The translations under genes were made by a program, and so were the position numbers. Below are positions 13,788-32,190 of a DNA stretch of 64,000 nt, in pieces. The notes below the pieces were generated by a model. It worked only from the letters and a program-made list of their open reading frames with translations. It was not told the DNA's origin and did not search any database. This stretch comes from Lactobacillus sp. CBA3606 (lineage in GTDB: Bacteria; Bacillota; Bacilli; Lactobacillales; Lactobacillaceae). Numbering within the stretch: position 1 is the first letter of the stretch; each line of letters opens with the position of its first letter. The DNA is taken from contig NZ_CP027194.1 of assembly GCF_002970935.1 (NCBI RefSeq), positions 2,046,001 through 2,110,000 on the forward strand. The letters are read 5' to 3'.

Positions 13788-15368
<1,581 letters not shown>

Positions 15369-15387
15369 ATATTACGGAAACCTTACA

Positions 15388-15420
15388 CATGATTGTTGAA
15401 ACTTTGTTTAGTTTTGAGAG
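15388..15420 (+). other. Pre-16S RNase III processing stem, 3' arm
   Basis: Complementary to 13646-13680; see that entry. Confidence 0.78.
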
Positions 15421-15448
15421 GTCTAACTCTCAATTTAATAACGCTTTT

Positions 15449-15522
15449 GGGCCTATAGCTCAGTTGGTGAGAGCGCACGCCTGATAAGCGTGAGGTCGAT
15501 GGTTCAAGTCCATTTAGGCCCA
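15449..15522 (+). tRNA. tRNA-Ile (GAU)
   Basis: Cloverleaf with acceptor GGGCCTA/TAGGCCC, D-arm TAGCTCAGTTGGTGAGAGC, anticodon loop CTGATAA with anticodon GAT, and TTCAAGT T-loop. No CCA is encoded. Standard 16S-23S spacer tRNA. Confidence 0.97.
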
Positions 15523-15551
15523 TCGAGGATTTTTTGTCCTTGCATCACTAT

Positions 15552-15624
15552 GGGGAATTAGCTCAGCTGGGAGAGCACCTGCTTTGCAAGCAGGAGGTCA
15601 ACGGTTCGATCCCGTTATTCTCCA
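15552..15624 (+). tRNA. tRNA-Ala (UGC)
   Basis: Acceptor GGGGAAT/ATTCTCC (one G-T pair), D-arm TAGCTCAGCTGGGAGAGC, anticodon TGC in loop TTTGCAA, and TTCGATC T-loop. No encoded CCA. Second spacer tRNA. Confidence 0.97.
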
Positions 15625-15655
15625 TTGGCAACTTTGGTTGTCAATGAAACTTGTT

Positions 15656-15692
15656 CTTTGAAAACTAGATAATATCAAATATAATTTTTCAT
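15656..15692 (+). other. Pre-23S RNase III processing stem, 5' arm
   Basis: AAAACTAGATAATATCAAAT here pairs with ATTTGATATTAGCTAGTTTT at 18724-18760 across the 23S gene, forming the precursor stem. Confidence 0.8.
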
Positions 15693-15782
15693 AATTAAAC
15701 CGAGAACACCGCGTTTTTTGAGTTTTTTAAAGAAGTTTTAAATCGCTAAACTCATTAATCGCATTTTCCGTTAGGAAAATGA

Positions 15783-18703
<2,921 letters not shown>

Positions 18704-18723
18704 GTAATTGGTGTTCCGGTAAG

Positions 18724-18760
18724 ATGAAAAATACAATTTGATATTAGCTAGTTTTGAGAG
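18724..18760 (+). other. Pre-23S RNase III processing stem, 3' arm
   Basis: Complementary to 15656-15692; see that entry. Confidence 0.78.
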
Positions 18761-18777
18761 CACAAGTTTCTCAATAG

Positions 18778-18894
18778 TGTGGCGACGATGGCAAGAAGGA
18801 TACACCTGTTCCCATGTCGAACACAGAAGTTAAGCTTCTTAGCGCCGAGAGTAGTTGGGGGATCGCTCCCTGCGAGGGTAGGACGTTGCCATGC
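18778..18894 (+). rRNA. rrf: 5S ribosomal RNA
   Basis: About 117 bases. Ends pair as TGTGGCGACG/CGTTGCCATG, with the conserved CCCATGTCGAACACAGAAGT core. Confidence 0.96.
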
Positions 18895-18899
18895 AATAT

Positions 18900-18972
18900 T
18901 CCGACATAGCTCAGTTGGTAGAGCGCTTGACTGTTAATCAAGATGTCGACGGTTCGAGCCCGCCTGTCGGAG
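18900..18972 (+). tRNA. tRNA-Asn (GUU)
   Basis: Acceptor TCCGACA/TGTCGGA, discriminator G, anticodon GTT in loop CTGTTAA, T-loop TTCGAGC. Five bases after 5S, so part of the rRNA transcript. Confidence 0.97.
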
Positions 18973-18977
18973 TGACA

Positions 18978-19010
18978 GTAGATGTTGGCCACAGAGTTGA
19001 CATCTTTTTT
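18978..19010 (+). terminator. Possible weak terminator between tRNA-Asn and tRNA-Thr
   Basis: AGATGT and ACATCT can pair across a 14-base loop, followed by six T. The stem is short, so it may only attenuate expression of tRNA-Thr. Confidence 0.4.
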
Positions 19011-19017
19011 CTATCAT

Positions 19018-19090
19018 GCCGGCTTAGCTCAGTTGGTAGAGCATCGGTATCGTAAACCGAGGGTCATCAGTTCGACTCTGGTAGCCGGCA
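19018..19090 (+). tRNA. tRNA-Thr (CGU)
   Basis: Acceptor GCCGGCT/AGCCGGC, anticodon stem TCGGT/ACCGA around loop ATCGTAA giving anticodon CGT, T-loop TTCGACT. Reads ACG codons. Confidence 0.95.
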
Positions 19091-26508: not shown

Positions 26509-27975
26509 ATGACTCAAATATATCCGGATGATAGTTTAACCTTGCATACGGATGCTTACCAGATTAACATGATGCAAACTTATTGGGAACAAGGGATTCA
26601 TAACAAGCACGCTGTTTTTGAGGTCTTTTTCCGTAAAATGCCGTTCCAAAATGGGTACGCAATTTTTGCGGGCTTGGAACGAGTGGTTAAGTATATCAAT
26701 AATCTTCACTTTACGGCGACTGATATCGCTTATTTGCGTGAAGCCGAAGATTATTCTGAAGGCTTTTTAGCTTATTTACAAGACTTTAAATTTGATGCGA
26801 CGATTCGCTCCGCTCGTGAAGGAGATCTCGTCTTTAATAATGAACCCGTGATGCAAGTTGAAGGGCCCCTAGCGACCTGTCAATTAATTGAAACGGCTTT
26901 GTTGAATATTATCAATTACCAAACTTTGATTGCGACCAAGGCCGCCCGTATTAAGTCGGTTGTGGGTGAGGATGGTTTATTGGAGTTTGGGACGCGGCGG
27001 GCCCAAGAATTTGATGCAGCAATTTGGGGCACCCGGGCAGCGTACATCGGCGGCTTTGATGCGACTAGTAATGTGCGTGCGGGTAAAATTTTTGGAATTC
27101 CAATTAGTGGGACGCATGCCCACGCGTTAGTTCAAACTTACCGTAATGATTATGCGGCCTTTAAAGCTTATGCCGAGACCCATCACGATTGTGTCTTCTT
27201 AGTGGATACGTATGATACGTTACGCAGCGGGGTTCCGAGTGCGATTAAAGTGGCTAAAGAAATGGGCGACCGGATTAATTTCCAAGGTGTCCGGATTGAT
27301 AGTGGGGATATGGCGTACTTATCCAAGCGCGTGCGCGAACAATTGGATCAAGCTGGTTTCCCAGATGCCAAGATTTATGCCTCAAATGATTTAGATGAAA
27401 AAACGATTCAAAACTTGAAGATGCAAGGTGCCAAAATTAGTGTCTGGGGGGTTGGAACCAAGCTGATTACGGCGTTTGACCAACCAGCACTCGGGGCGGT
27501 TTATAAGATGGTCTCCATTGAAGATGACCAGCATCAGATGGTTGATACGATTAAGTTATCGAATAATGCGGAAAAGGTTTCGACGCCTGGTCGCAAACAG
27601 ATTTGGCGGATTACGAAGCGGGCGGATGGTAAATCAGAAGGCGATTATGTCACCTTGTCGGATGAAGATCCACGCGATGAAGCGTCTATCTATATGTTCC
27701 ATCCTAGTTACACTTATATCAACAAAACGGTGAGTGATTTTGATGCACGGCCCGTGTTAGTGCCTATTTATGACCAAGGAAAACAAGTCTATCAATTGCC
27801 TGAGTTGGCGGCGATTAAGCAATATGCTTATGATAGCTTGGATTCGTTATGGGATGAATACAAGCGTGACTTAAATCCGCAAGATTATCCAGTGGATTTA
27901 TCACAAAAACTTTACGATCATAAAATGAACATCATTCATTCAGTCCGTGACTGGGTGAGTCAAAAAGACTATTAG
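26509..27975 (+). CDS. pncB: Nicotinate phosphoribosyltransferase
   Basis: Converts nicotinate plus PRPP to nicotinate mononucleotide, the entry point of NAD salvage. The 488-residue protein shows LHTDAYQINMMQTYWEQG (~12), FEVFFRKMPFQNGYAIF (~38), EFGTRRAQEFDAA (~163, with the phosphorylated-His region GTHAHALVQ at ~200) and FQGVRIDSGDMAYLSKRVR (~260). GGAG ribosome site. nadE follows 14 bases later, so the pair forms a salvage operon; nadD is elsewhere. Confidence 0.95.
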   Translation: MTQIYPDDSLTLHTDAYQINMMQTYWEQGIHNKHAVFEVFFRKMPFQNGYAIFAGLERVVKYINNLHFTATDIAYLREAEDYSEGFLAYLQDFKFDATIRSAREGDLVFNNEPVMQVEGPLATCQLIETALLNIINYQTLIATKAARIKSVVGEDGLLEFGTRRAQEFDAAIWGTRAAYIGGFDATSNVRAGKIFGIPISGTHAHALVQTYRNDYAAFKAYAETHHDCVFLVDTYDTLRSGVPSAIKVAKEMGDRINFQGVRIDSGDMAYLSKRVREQLDQAGFPDAKIYASNDLDEKTIQNLKMQGAKISVWGVGTKLITAFDQPALGAVYKMVSIEDDQHQMVDTIKLSNNAEKVSTPGRKQIWRITKRADGKSEGDYVTLSDEDPRDEASIYMFHPSYTYINKTVSDFDARPVLVPIYDQGKQVYQLPELAAIKQYAYDSLDSLWDEYKRDLNPQDYPVDLSQKLYDHKMNIIHSVRDWVSQKDY

Positions 27976-27989
27976 GAGGAATTTAGCCG

Positions 27990-28817
27990 ATGCGGTCATT
28001 ACAAACTGAAATTATTAAGGCACTCCACGTTGCCCCCCAGATCGATCCCGAAACCGAAATTCGTCGGAGTATTGATTTTTTGAAAGCGTATCTCAAAAAG
28101 AATTCATTCTTGACAAGTTACGTTTTAGGAATTTCGGGTGGCCAAGACTCCACGCTAGCCGGCAAATTGACCCAAATGGCCATTGACGAGATGCGTACGG
28201 AAACGGGTAATCCTGATTATCAATTTATTGCGGTTCGGTTACCTTATGGCGATCAGGCGGATGAATCGGATGCGATGGCGGCGATTGATTTTATGCAGGC
28301 CGACGTGGTTGACCGTGTTGATATTCAACCGGCAACGGATGCGATGGTTGAGGCTTTAGAGGCCAATTCACTAACAATTCATGATTTTAACAAAGGGAAC
28401 ATTAAAGCTCGGCAACGAATGATTGTGCAATATGGGATTGCCGGTGAAACTCACGGCGTTGTTGTGGGTACGGATCATGCCGCTGAAGCAGTCACAGGCT
28501 TTTACACGAAATATGGTGATGGTGGCGCTGACGTGGTGCCTTTATATCGCTTAAATAAACGGCAAGGGCGCGCGATGTTGGCTTATTTACAAGCGCCTAA
28601 ACACCTTTACGAAAAGGTCCCAACGGCTGACTTGGAAGATGATCGCCCCGCTTTACCAGACGAAGTCGCGTTAGGGGTGCATTATGATGAGATTGATGAT
28701 TATTTAGAAGGCCGAGCGATTGCGCCTGCTGCCGCTGAAAAGATTGAGGCGTGGTATTTAAAGACTGCGCACAAGCGGCACGCCGCAATTAATGTCTTTG
28801 ACGATTTTTGGAAATAA
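27990..28817 (+). CDS. nadE: NH3-dependent NAD synthetase
   Basis: Final step of NAD synthesis: ATP-dependent amidation of nicotinate adenine dinucleotide. At 275 residues it is the short, ammonia-dependent form without a glutaminase domain. The P-loop [14 protein letters not shown] is at ~47, [17 protein letters not shown] at ~132, the [20 protein letters not shown] block at ~165 and [20 protein letters not shown] at ~215. AGGAGG ribosome site; co-transcribed with pncB. Confidence 0.96.
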
Positions 28818-28837: not shown

Positions 28838-28866
28838 TAGACAATGGTCCAGTTATTCGCTATACT
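28838..28866 (+). promoter_or_regulatory. Promoter of the riboswitch-ATPase transcript
   Basis: TAGACA at 28838-28843, 17-base spacer, TATACT at 28861-28866. It would start transcription at ~28873, directly before the riboswitch P1 strand. Confidence 0.65.
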
Positions 28867-28875
28867 GATGCTACA

Positions 28876-29002
28876 ATCATAAGGGAGTAACTAGCAGATT
28901 ATCTGCGGCAACGTCGTCAACAAGAAGCCAATCCGGTGTTGTCTTAAATAGTGAGACTTATGTATGTCACATTTTGCGTGCATACATGAGTCTCATTTTC
29001 TA
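28876..29002 (+). ncRNA. yybP-ykoY-type Mn2+ riboswitch with terminator
   Basis: The aptamer has the family landmarks: AAGGGAGTAAC (28881; loop L1), a small GCAGATTATCTGC hairpin, the CGTCGTCAACA segment at ~28912 opposite ATCCGGTGTTG (loop L3), and TAGTGAGAC (28949) closing the fold. CATAAG (28878-28883) can pair with CTTATG (28957-28962) as P1. That strand is also part of the 5' arm of a terminator, GAGACTTATGTATG (28953) with CATACATGAGTCTC (28981) and a short T-rich tail. Mn2+ binding would therefore favour antitermination and pump expression. The family assignment rests on similarity to the Lactococcus yoaB riboswitch as I remember it. Confidence 0.8.
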
Positions 29003-29041
29003 TACCAAGAAGATGAGGCTCAGATGCGAGGAGGAGATTTT

Positions 29042-31705
29042 ATGTCAAAAGCAACACCGATTTATCAGCAGTCGTTAGCAACGATTTATCAGCATTTGCA
29101 AACCAACGACCAAGGTCTGAGCCAAGTCGAGGTGGACGCCCGCCTGGAAAAATACGGCCATAATGCGTTGAATCAACAAAAAACAACGTCATTATTGCAA
29201 AAATTCATTGCCCAGTTTAAAGATTTTATGATTATTGTCTTACTGGTGGCCGCATTAATTGCAGCCTTTACGGGTGAAGGCGTGGACGCTATCATCATTT
29301 TATTAGTGGTCGTATTGAATGCCGTCTTTGGCGTGTTCCAAGAATCCAAAGCTGAAGAAGCGATTAATGCGTTAAAAGAGATGGCGGCCCCGGATGCAAC
29401 TGTCTTGCGCGATCAAGCCTTAACAACGGTCAAAAGCGATGAACTAGTTCCCGGTGATATTGTGTCATTAGAAGCTGGTGACATTGTACCAGCAGATTTA
29501 CGGTTATTGACCAGTGCCTCGCTAAAAGTTGAAGAAGCCGCTTTGACTGGAGAATCAGTCCCGGTTGAGAAGCAAGCAGTGACGTTGACCGCGGCGGACT
29601 TAGCTATTGGCGACCGGGTCAATATGGCCTATATGAACAGTAACGTGACGTATGGTCGCAGCACCGGGATCGTAGTTGCGACTGGGATGCAGACCGAGGT
29701 TGGTCGGATTGCCGGGATGATTGAAGCGGCTGACGAGACGACCACACCATTGCAAGACAATTTAACGCAATTAGGAAAATCATTAACCATTTTGATTTTA
29801 ATTATTGCCGCTGTTGTGTTTGGTGTCGGCATGTTGCGGGGCAGCGAAAGTCTGATCAATATGCTGCTAACGGCCATCTCGCTAGCCGTTGCAGCGATTC
29901 CCGAAGGCTTACCAGCCATTGTGACCATTACCTTAGCGCTGGGCACCCAACGGATGGCGAAACGCCATGCGTTAGTTCGTAAACTTCCCGCCGTTGAGAC
30001 GCTTGGCAGTACCGATATTATTGCGTCAGATAAGACTGGGACGTTAACTCAGAATAAAATGACGGTTGAAAAGTTAGTTGTTAACCAAGCATTAGTTGAC
30101 GCCCGGACGACTCATTTAGCGCCAGCCAGTCATTTGGCACAAGTGATGATTTTAAGTAATGATACAAAAATTATGGCTGATGGGTTAGCCGGTGATCCGA
30201 CCGAAACGGCATTAGTACAGTATCAGTTAGATCAGGATTATCCGGTTGATCAACTCTTAAAAGACCGGCCACGGGTGAATGAAGTGCCCTTTGATTCTGA
30301 ACGTAAATTGATGTCAACGGTGCACCCATTACCGAATGGTCAATTCTTAGTGGCCGTTAAAGGGGCGCCAGATGAATTATTAAAACGGGTTACGGCGATT
30401 GAAAACAATGAACAAGTCAGTCCCTTGACGGCAACTATGCGTGATCAAATTTTAGCGACTAACCATCAGTTAGCGACACAAGCATTGCGTGTCTTAGCAT
30501 TTGCCTATAAGATTATTGACGAAATTCCGGCAACGGTTGATTCTATGACTTTAGAAAATGAGTTGATTTTTGCTGGTATGGTCGGCATGATTGATCCAGA
30601 ACGGCCAGAAGTTGAACAAGCGGTGGCTGAAGCCAAGTCAGCCGGGATTCGCCCATTAATGATTACGGGTGATCATCGTGATACCGCCGAAGCAATTGCA
30701 GTCCGTTTGGGGATTATAGAAGCGGGTGATGATGCTGCCGTGATTACCGGGGCAGAATTAGATGCATTGAGTGACGCTGAATTCAGTAAAAAAGTCGCCG
30801 ATTACGCGGTGTATGCACGGGTGGCGCCGGAACATAAGGTCCGCATTGTTAATGCGTGGCAAAAACGTGGTAAAGTCGTTGCCATGACTGGTGATGGGGT
30901 CAATGATGCGCCCGCCTTGAAAGCTGCCGACATCGGTATTGGAATGGGAATTACTGGTACAGAAGTCTCTAAAGGGGCCAGTGATATGGTCTTGGCGGAT
31001 GACAACTTTGCAACGATTGTGGTGGCTGTTGAAGAGGGACGAAAAGTCTTTGCCAATATTCAAAAAGCGATTCAATACTTGTTATCAGCAAACTTAGGTG
31101 AAGTCTTGACCTTGTTTATGATGACGATGCTTGGCTGGCAAATCTTAGCGCCGGTGCATATTTTGTGGATTAACTTGGTGACTGATACCTTGCCAGCAAT
31201 TGCGTTGGGTGTTGAACCGACTGAAAAGAACATTATGCAGCACAAACCACGGGGACGTAATTCGAACTTCTTCTCCGGGGGCGTGTTCTCCAGTATTATC
31301 TATCAAGGATTACTGGAAGGTGGGATTACCCTATTCGTTTATTGGCTGGCGATTACGTATCCCGTGCATGCCAGTGCGAGCTTGGCACATGCCGATGCGT
31401 TAACCATGGCTTTTGCCACCTTAGGGTTGATTCAGTTATTCCATGCATTTAACTCTAAGTCGATTCACGAGTCACTTTTCACAGTCGGTCTGTTCCGGAA
31501 TAAGTTCTTTAACTGGGCGATTCTGATTGCGTTTGCTTTACTTGCCATGACCATTATGGTGCCAGGCTTAAATGGCTTGTTCCATGTCAGTCATTTAGAT
31601 GGCTACCAATGGGGAATTGTCGCCGCCGCATCAATTTCAATGGTTATTGTTGTTGAAATTGTTAAGTTCGGTCAACGTTGGTGGTTACGCAAGCATAATG
31701 GTTAA
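29042..31705 (+). CDS. P2-type cation-transporting ATPase, probable Mn2+ exporter
   Basis: An 887-residue P-type ATPase of the PacL/SERCA-like group. Order: N-terminal cation ATPase domain, TM1-2, actuator with ALTGESVPVEK (~175), TM4 with PEGLP, phosphorylation site SDKTGTLTQNK (Asp330), nucleotide domain with KGAPDELLKR, hinge MTGDGVNDAPALK (~615), and C-terminal TM5-10. Such pumps are routinely labelled Ca2+ ATPases. The yybP-ykoY riboswitch upstream points to Mn2+ efflux, as for YoaB of Lactococcus and MgtA of pneumococcus; this is an inference. ATG 29042 follows GAGGAGGAG; the longer frame from 28964 lies inside the riboswitch. Confidence 0.92.
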   Translation: MSKATPIYQQSLATIYQHLQTNDQGLSQVEVDARLEKYGHNALNQQKTTSLLQKFIAQFKDFMIIVLLVAALIAAFTGEGVDAIIILLVVVLNAVFGVFQESKAEEAINALKEMAAPDATVLRDQALTTVKSDELVPGDIVSLEAGDIVPADLRLLTSASLKVEEAALTGESVPVEKQAVTLTAADLAIGDRVNMAYMNSNVTYGRSTGIVVATGMQTEVGRIAGMIEAADETTTPLQDNLTQLGKSLTILILIIAAVVFGVGMLRGSESLINMLLTAISLAVAAIPEGLPAIVTITLALGTQRMAKRHALVRKLPAVETLGSTDIIASDKTGTLTQNKMTVEKLVVNQALVDARTTHLAPASHLAQVMILSNDTKIMADGLAGDPTETALVQYQLDQDYPVDQLLKDRPRVNEVPFDSERKLMSTVHPLPNGQFLVAVKGAPDELLKRVTAIENNEQVSPLTATMRDQILATNHQLATQALRVLAFAYKIIDEIPATVDSMTLENELIFAGMVGMIDPERPEVEQAVAEAKSAGIRPLMITGDHRDTAEAIAVRLGIIEAGDDAAVITGAELDALSDAEFSKKVADYAVYARVAPEHKVRIVNAWQKRGKVVAMTGDGVNDAPALKAADIGIGMGITGTEVSKGASDMVLADDNFATIVVAVEEGRKVFANIQKAIQYLLSANLGEVLTLFMMTMLGWQILAPVHILWINLVTDTLPAIALGVEPTEKNIMQHKPRGRNSNFFSGGVFSSIIYQGLLEGGITLFVYWLAITYPVHASASLAHADALTMAFATLGLIQLFHAFNSKSIHESLFTVGLFRNKFFNWAILIAFALLAMTIMVPGLNGLFHVSHLDGYQWGIVAAASISMVIVVEIVKFGQRWWLRKHNG

Positions 31706-31755: not shown

Positions 31756-32190
31756 ATGAAAAAAGCAACGATGGCGACCTACATGCCAGTTTTATCGAAA
31801 GTTATTGAAAATACCGAAAAAATGGGTGAACAAATGAATCCCGGTTTTGAAAAAATCCGTCAGGCAGTGGATACGGATGCGATTGCTAAAATGGTTCCCG
31901 CTGAATTTAATGATATTCAGATGGAATTCACGGATGGCACTGAACAATACCAAAAAAATCTACAACAATTAAAGCAAGCGGCTGTTCCTGCACGCTTGAT
32001 TGGGAAGCATCGTAACCTGTTGGCTGCATATGACGCTTATACGACAGCGTGTGCCGCGATGACTGCGAGCTTGAAAATTGCCGATCAAACTGTCGATGTG
32101 GCTGCGTTTAACCAAGCTGAAAAGGATCAAGAAGCTGCGATGACGCATGTTTCTAACGATGTTCAACGGATTATGACGATGGTGATGTAA
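31756..32190 (+). CDS. Uncharacterised small helical protein
   Basis: A 144-residue soluble protein I do not recognise. It has no signal peptide, membrane segment or cysteine, and looks mostly alpha-helical, with Met- and Gln-rich amphipathic stretches (KVIENTEKMGEQMNPGFEKI, and later NDVQRIMTMVM). It starts 50 bases after the ATPase gene and is probably on the same riboswitch-controlled transcript, ended by the terminator at 32204. The ribosome site (AAGAG) is weak. A link to metal homeostasis is possible only from context. Confidence 0.7.
   Translation: MKKATMATYMPVLSKVIENTEKMGEQMNPGFEKIRQAVDTDAIAKMVPAEFNDIQMEFTDGTEQYQKNLQQLKQAAVPARLIGKHRNLLAAYDAYTTACAAMTASLKIADQTVDVAAFNQAEKDQEAAMTHVSNDVQRIMTMVM

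Follow-up and report, generated by a model that had tools for sequence, protein, structure and literature searches.

In Lactobacillus sp. CBA3606 (assembly GCF_002970935.1, contig NZ_CP027194.1), a stretch of 64,000 nucleotides (nt) covering forward-strand positions 2,046,001 to 2,110,000, hereafter called the window and numbered from its first letter, carries the gene for a P-type ATPase (the pump) that follows nadE across a gap of 224 nt containing the leader considered here. The leader (28878-29003) is a structured RNA switch and in all likelihood belongs to the three-way-junction form of the yybP-ykoY riboswitches, which sense Mn2+, and acts as a transcriptional ON switch; as such it is unremarkable within a class already known. 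An earlier sequence-only reading had proposed a yybP-ykoY-type Mn2+ riboswitch in which helix P1.1 competes with a terminator, and had gone on to recast the ATPase as an exporter of Mn2+. The riboswitch observation as such is confirmed and the interpretation as a whole is partly supported, two features having been missed: the junction type, with its missing helix P4, and a second alternative hairpin 3' of the terminator.

Architecture of the leader

The elements of the locus are listed here in order; A2 is the alignment of 51 leaders described below.

27990-28817: nadE (NAD synthase), preceding the leader and the pump gene
28838-28866, + strand: promoter, with -35 TAGACA (28838-28843), a 17-nt spacer and -10 TATACT (28861-28866); expected start at about 28873
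28878-28883, + strand: 5' strand of the switch helix P1.1, CAUAAG, pairing with 28957-28962; covariation in A2
28884-28889, + strand: 5' strand of L1, GGAGUA, from the sequence; its invariance in A2 follows in part from how the leaders were chosen
28890-28893, + strand: 5' strand of P1.2, pairing with 28949-28952; changes on both sides in 3 of 4 pairs
28894-28906, + strand: hairpin P2, 28894-28898 with 28902-28906; changes on both sides in 5 of 5 pairs
28907-28943, + strand: P3.1, 28907-28916 with 28934-28943, closed by loop L3; changes on both sides in 8 of 10 pairs
28919, + strand: metal-sensing adenosine in L3, equivalent of A41 in Lactococcus lactis; all 51 leaders have CA at 28918-28919
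28944-28948, + strand: junction UUAAA at the place of P4 in the four-way-junction riboswitch; no helix here in A2
28953-28962, + strand: 3' strand of L1, GAGA, and 3' strand of P1.1, CUUAUG (28957-28962); covariation, with AGAC lying within a search word
28952-29003, + strand: intrinsic terminator predicted by folding, 28952-28966 with 28981-28995, followed by a U-tract at 28996-29003
28987-29022, + strand: third hairpin ('3:4'), 28987-29001 (terminator 3' arm and U-tract) with 29008-29022
29029-29034, + strand: ribosome-binding site AGGAGG, from the sequence
29042-31705, + strand: P-type ATPase of the IIA (Ca2+-ATPase) group, 887 amino acids, start picked by the ribosome-binding site

All four landmarks of the class that had been read in the leader are present on checking the sequence, and CATAAG and CTTATG pair from exactly the places given for them. 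The terminator does hold CTTATG in its 5' arm, as had been claimed, its stem counting 15 base pairs (bp) rather than 14 and being followed by a weak U-tract, UUUUCUAU. Folding of 28872-29000 yields -40.9 kcal/mol against a shuffle mean of -25.3 kcal/mol (z -4.6), a value equalled by 0 of 200 shuffles, and in 22 leaders the 15 terminator pairs are formed in 99.4% of cells, with little covariation (9 of the 15 never vary). The promoter that had been read as giving a start just before P1 is the single match, TAGACA-17-TATACT, in a consensus scan of the leader region, where shuffles give 1.0, and thus stands at chance level when taken alone; it gains weight from a promoter with a 17-nt spacer and the same or closely variant hexamers in 24 of 25 leaders from the genus group (21 genomes assigned to one genus, our own counted) and its nearest relatives, with a few near-copies among them and one exception that is cut short.

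Among 130 loci checked for the pump, 125 proved positive, and the leader motif GGAGTA...AGAC was found in 112 of these, the source sets overlapping and not all being independent. Of the 112, 111 could be parsed, 64 remained under 90% identity and 51 entered A2; the 13 left out are L096, L124, the three clostridial leaders L130-L132 and eight whose P3 carries a long insertion. The leaders were chosen by the words GGAGUA and AGAC, and the invariance of both is therefore no test. Across the 25 pairs of A2, 91.4% of cells are paired and 21 pairs have changed on both sides, a level of pairing reached by 0 of 500 shuffles and far above that of slid registers, although the latter control is biased toward the structure because the structure was derived from the window's own fold and motifs. 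RNAalifold independently recovers 21 of the 25 pairs. Helices P1.1, P1.2, P2 and P3.1 all covary, the weakest being P1.1, whose outer two pairs are unpaired in 12 and 14 of the 51 leaders; structure, conservation and the alternative pairings can be taken as shown. The C and the A of the metal-sensing triple, which lie outside the search words, are invariant throughout A2. In L. lactis, the N7 of A41 coordinates Mn2+, and sensing suffers when A41 or its counterpart is changed to U, as described in the available text of three reports (PMC9190785, PMC6754395, PMC11087558).

Kinship and distribution of the aptamer

A model (R1) was built from A2 in a way that makes its E-values approximate. Among leaders that it was not trained on, it recovers three that are RF00080-positive (L134, E 1.9e-6; L135, 3.7e-4; L136, 1.8e-3), the clostridial leaders L130-L132 (E 1.8e-4 to 2.1e-3) and two leaders of Streptococcus pseudopneumoniae (74.0 and 80.1 bits; 1.1e-16 and 2.8e-18), other streptococci being in A2. 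In clostridial L130 and L131 a hairpin can be seen by eye at the place of P4, where the Lactobacillales have UUAAA, so both junction types precede one pump family. At E<=0.001, R1 has a match in 81 of 98 genomes of the order, from 35 of 40 genera; in the genome of the window it finds one copy and no second. Among the best 80 of 592 named ATPase loci, from which records near the window may be left out, the best pumps belong to an uncultured Lactobacillus metagenome-assembled genome (MAG; 86%) and to Levilactobacillus (77-80%), and the leader motif precedes 67 of the 80. The other 13, without the motif by word search, are Lapidilactobacillus, three Liquorilactobacillus, three Ligilactobacillus, Enterococcus hulanensis, a Streptococcaceae MAG, three Paenibacillus and a Candidatus Symbiothrix MAG. 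Genomic association with the pump and kinship with RF00080-positive riboswitches are likewise shown; together with the covariation they uphold the proposed class, while the ligand and the ON logic are inferred.

The Rfam family that does recognize the leader is RF02617 ('SSRC10'), which matches 28879-28999, the whole leader including the terminator (model positions 1 to 113), at 42.9 bits, where 56 is the gathering score (E 7.8e-7 in a 401-bp search, 1.2e-6 genome-wide). A positive-control scan of 11 loci with RF00080 and RF02617 at E<=0.5 placed both S. pseudopneumoniae leaders and that of Streptococcus henryi above the RF02617 gathering score, with no RF00080 match, and gave 41.9 bits with RF02617 for Lactococcus hircilactis, 41.6 bits with RF00080 (cut-off 45) for Escherichia coli mntP and 52.4 bits with RF00080 for L136; E. 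coli alx, three clostridial leaders and one Leuconostoc leader matched neither family. Among 60 Lactobacillales relatives, RF00080 exceeds its cut-off in 3 (G043, G050, G056), and RF02617 matches at E<=0.1 in 47, passing its own cut-off in 4 of these; certain weak second matches to RF02617 lack the leader motif and are terminator-like only. RF02617, which is filed as a small RNA (sRNA) gene, seems to represent the RF00080 riboswitch in its three-way-junction form. According to the available text on it, SSRC10 was mapped in Streptococcus pyogenes between SPyM3_0439 and SPyM3_0440 ('putative calcium transporter'), on the same strand, as a discrete RNA by Northern blot with ends by rapid amplification of cDNA ends, a putative promoter and a Rho-independent terminator (PMC3675131). 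It may well be the terminated form of the pump riboswitch, which would fit the OFF state. The result is an annotation gap, RF00080 marking 3 of 60 Lactobacillales genomes and the P4-less model 81 of 98 in a different sample, while Rfam files the P4-less form as a streptococcal sRNA.

Several leaders depart from the common arrangement. In Streptococcus suis L113 and L115, the terminator is apparently split by an insertion and the start codon lies 339-341 nt past GCGAGAC, a distance of 75 nt in L111 and L119 of the same species. The leader of Secundilactobacillus collinoides (L058) has the aptamer and no terminator that the script could place, and its start codon is found 46 nt downstream of the first base of GUGAGAC; for these reasons its control may be translational. 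In genus g35 (L169, L182-L184), a riboswitch copy precedes the gene of a P-type ATPase paralogue that shares about 45% identity with the window pump.

Outside the window, 40 further R1 loci, taken in two batches and mostly chosen as second copies, divide into 21 before a P-type ATPase and 19 before a Kup K+ transporter; Pfam K_trans was confirmed in 4 of 4 Kup proteins checked, and RF00080 gave weak matches in 2 of 6 Kup leaders scanned. The sensing adenosine is kept in 15 of the 19 Kup leaders (14 of 18 in A4, plus L176 by eye) and replaced by U, making the triple ACU, in the other four (L173, L174, L177, L207), all from one genus, while the P-type ATPase leaders of the same four genomes (L208-L211) all keep CCA. 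Judged by their sequences, the U-variant Kup aptamers are the natural counterpart of the A41U mutation. In the 15 loci with the adenosine kept (L175, L176, L178, L195-L206), from two families (f3, f9), Kup lies behind aptamer and terminator; within the sequence read, the Kup frame behind the variant aptamer of L177 stops after 200 codons, unlike the others, and is either broken or the product of a sequencing fault. A loose search of the literature, covering few subscription journals, found no link between yybP-ykoY riboswitches and Kup, and the main text, as available, of a paper on K+ transporters of Enterococcus faecalis has neither the word riboswitch nor manganese. What is the significance of Kup-linked copies, some of them with an altered sensing adenosine? 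They raise the question of whether the aptamer has been retuned.

The proposed switch and the third hairpin

On the reading as a Mn2+-responsive ON switch, Mn2+ would bridge L1 (28884-28889/28953-28956) and L3 (28917-28919) and thereby dock the two legs of the aptamer. Docking would stabilize P1.1 (28878-28883 with 28957-28962), which would sequester part of the terminator 5' arm, and RNA polymerase would therefore read through into the cation pump gene. At low Mn2+, 28952-28966 would pair with 28981-28995 and transcription would stop at about 29000. In read-through mRNA, 29008-29022 would capture the terminator 3' arm and the U-tract and, by conjecture, keep the terminator from re-forming. 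The competition between P1.1 and the terminator has a precedent in L. lactis, as far as the available text of two reports goes (PMC11087558, PMC6754395).

A number of results weigh against this reading. RF00080 (gathering score 45), named by the sequence-only reading as a search whose failure would refute it, returned no match at the leader at E-values up to 10; this miss is not diagnostic here because relatives of the Streptococcus pneumoniae riboswitch and E. coli alx were missed too, and the search was dropped as a deciding test, being uninformative once positive controls had failed. A2 has no P4 helix, only UUAAA. R1 scores E. coli mntP at E 0.33 and alx at E 1, barely above a presumed chance match at E 1.2, and its genome search at E<=0.001 finds nothing in the RF00080-positive genomes G043, G050 and G056. 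A consensus scanner called no terminator at the leader, whose U-tract is weak. In a metal-free secondary-structure model of 19 leaders, combining P1.1 with the third hairpin costs on average 10 kcal/mol relative to the terminator state, so that ligand or kinetics must do the work. Finally, no binding or expression data were found for this species.

The third hairpin, of 15 bp, is present in the minimum-free-energy fold of 28876-29060, which lacks the terminator. Measured against shuffles of the downstream sequence, the third pairing has z -6.5 and p 0.001 for the window itself, and all 21 genus-group genomes reach p<=0.006. In alignment A3 (19 genus-group leaders and three named Levilactobacillus; one identical copy and L050, which has a longer insert, were left out of the 24 listed), 96.3% of third-hairpin cells are paired, and of five measures, four are equalled by 0 of 500 shuffles and one, the number of pair types, by 32 of 500. 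Where the downstream strand departs from the window, pairing is preserved in 83 of 94 cases, and 11 of the 13 unpaired cells fall in the three Levilactobacillus rows. Judged from these alignments, third pairing in the genus group is well supported and the hairpin is under selection within the genus.

Over the wider set of leaders, the pairing is patchy. Among 64 non-redundant leaders, 60 with a placeable terminator, it reaches p<0.05 in 19 and p<0.01 in 13. Sorted by named group, it recurs at p<0.05, with other sequences, in Streptococcus (9 of 17 testable leaders) and Enterococcus (5 of 7); the count is 0 of 10 for Lactobacillus, where the start codon follows within 20-28 nt, 0 of 4 for testable Lentilactobacillus and 0 of 4 for Leuconostoc, and the pairing was not found in three clostridial leaders or in that of Lactococcus hircilactis. 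In Lentilactobacillus L074, whose terminator was not placed by the script, a pairing of the third type is visible by eye. Could such a hairpin be a general feature of attenuators? This was ruled out by T-box terminators of the genus, with p<0.05 in 0 of 29 (from 30 loci drawn from the best-scoring of a longer list); among other terminator-like sites of the window, 1 of 18 reaches p<0.05.

In the window, the terminator state is computed at -52.3 kcal/mol, the third-hairpin state at -53.3 kcal/mol and the latter with P1.1 forced as well at -45.3 kcal/mol. We tentatively propose, as a possibility that falls somewhat short of probable, a three-state expression platform in which P1.1 competes for the terminator 5' arm, and the hairpin 28987-29001/29008-29022 for the 3' arm and U-tract. 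This hairpin would form only in read-through mRNA, block the terminator from re-forming and return the shared strand to the aptamer, leaving the full-length mRNA with a reset 5' end at which Mn2+ could be read again, for instance in the control of decay. This function we infer; the hairpin itself poses a question that can be tested, namely what becomes of the terminator strands after read-through.

Rival readings, the pump and known systems

It is very hard to credit that the leader is instead a trans-acting small RNA (SSRC10, RF02617) whose terminated RNA is the product, with no switch in cis. Rfam does class RF02617 as an sRNA gene, and SSRC10 is a discrete transcript in S. pyogenes, proposed in the available text as a trans-acting candidate (PMC3675131), but at 67 of the best 80 of 592 named ATPase loci the leader is followed by the same pump gene, P1.1 is conserved as the competitor of the terminator, and an OFF riboswitch would also yield a short terminated RNA. 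Improbable as well is the idea that the third hairpin gates translation by hiding or freeing the ribosome-binding site: the hairpin ends 6 nt upstream of the window Shine-Dalgarno sequence and appears to be under selection in the genus, yet the computed accessibility of the Shine-Dalgarno sequence is equal in both states (mean 0.49 vs 0.49 in 19 leaders), and translational control by this route was rejected on that ground.

The third rival accepts the riboswitch fold, takes Ca2+, or Ca2+ together with Mn2+, as the signal and holds the pump to be mainly a Ca2+ exporter; we consider it unlikely. Among solved structures, the pump comes closest to two proteins named as calcium-transporting ATPases: lmo0841 (711.6 bits), which we take to be LMCA1, and type 2C member 1 (517.2 bits), presumably SPCA1. 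The pump falls below the curated cut-offs of TIGR01116 (SERCA-type; 680.9 vs 703.4) and TIGR01522 (PMR1-type; 687.4 vs 798.3) and above that of TIGR01494 (HAD-IC P-type ATPase; 329.3 vs 62.3). Its cation-site residues E288, N684, E687, N711, T714, D715 and Q798 align with the SERCA sites. The same E N E N T D Q set occurs in 66 of 66 riboswitch-linked named pumps (L130, cut short, excluded) and in 12 or 13 of the 13 readable motif-less ones, depending on the column; a difference in these seven residues between pumps with and without the riboswitch was sought and there is none. Identity of the sites in riboswitch-linked and riboswitch-free orthologues speaks for a calcium pump; the earlier recasting of the ATPase as a Mn2+ exporter was an overreach. 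The S. pneumoniae aptamer has a higher affinity for Ca2+ than for Mn2+, yet transcription there is activated more by Mn2+ than by Ca2+, both as relayed in the available text of PMC9495176, and the Mn2+-selective adenosine is retained in 51 of 51 leaders. Martin et al. 2019 name the streptococcal pump, in their title, a Mn2+/Ca2+ ATPase, and papers citing them state, in the text available, that the streptococcal riboswitch binds Ca2+ too (PMC9495176, PMC11434433). The presence of the riboswitch suggests that the pump is induced by metal excess, and it links the pump to metal stress without singling out the metal that is moved.

A pncB-like open reading frame, named by inspection, lies at 26509-27975, and one of 144 amino acids 3' of the pump (31756-32190) has no Pfam or NCBIfam match. 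An rRNA operon occupies 13788-19090 and has tRNA genes both in its 16S-23S spacer and behind 5S; over its full length, the 16S gene (13788-15361) is 98.0% identical to a Lactiplantibacillus plantarum record, the next being Latilactobacillus curvatus at 93.5%, and from this 16S match the host is probably a Lactiplantibacillus or a very near relative, a placement in Levilactobacillus having been dropped on this ground; it is plausible that it groups with the Mn-rich lactobacilli.

How does the locus compare with known systems? In lmo0841 and type 2C member 1, the residues aligned with pump E288, N711 and D715 are kept; of N684, E687 and T714, two are changed in lmo0841 and all three in type 2C member 1, and in place of Q798 they have R and D (the last two comparisons by eye). 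With RF00080, named Manganese in Rfam, the leader has a common core, R1 finding three of its positives, and differs in having no RF00080 match and no P4. RF02617 covers the leader whole, terminator included, although it is described as a streptococcal sRNA and the window stays below its gathering score. The L. lactis yoaB riboswitch (4Y1I) has the same L1/L3 core, the sensing A41 and a P1.1 that overlaps the terminator (PMC11087558, PMC9190785, in the available text); its published form has helices P1-P4 (PMC9190785), whereas the window lacks P4, and its Lactococcus hircilactis stand-in, unlike the window, has no third hairpin (p 0.764). The nearest likeness in junction type is with the S. pneumoniae mgtA riboswitch, a yybP-ykoY aptamer with a three-way junction before a P-type ATPase, again according to the text available (PMC9495176, PMC11434433); the three-way-junction form was thus already known, the mgtA aptamer having been reported so (PMC9495176). 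Compared with the two S. pseudopneumoniae leaders that stand in for mgtA, the window has a more stable terminator stem (-24.4 vs -14.1 and -14.2 kcal/mol), followed by a weak U-tract, and a far stronger third hairpin (z -6.5 vs -1.8 and -2.6).

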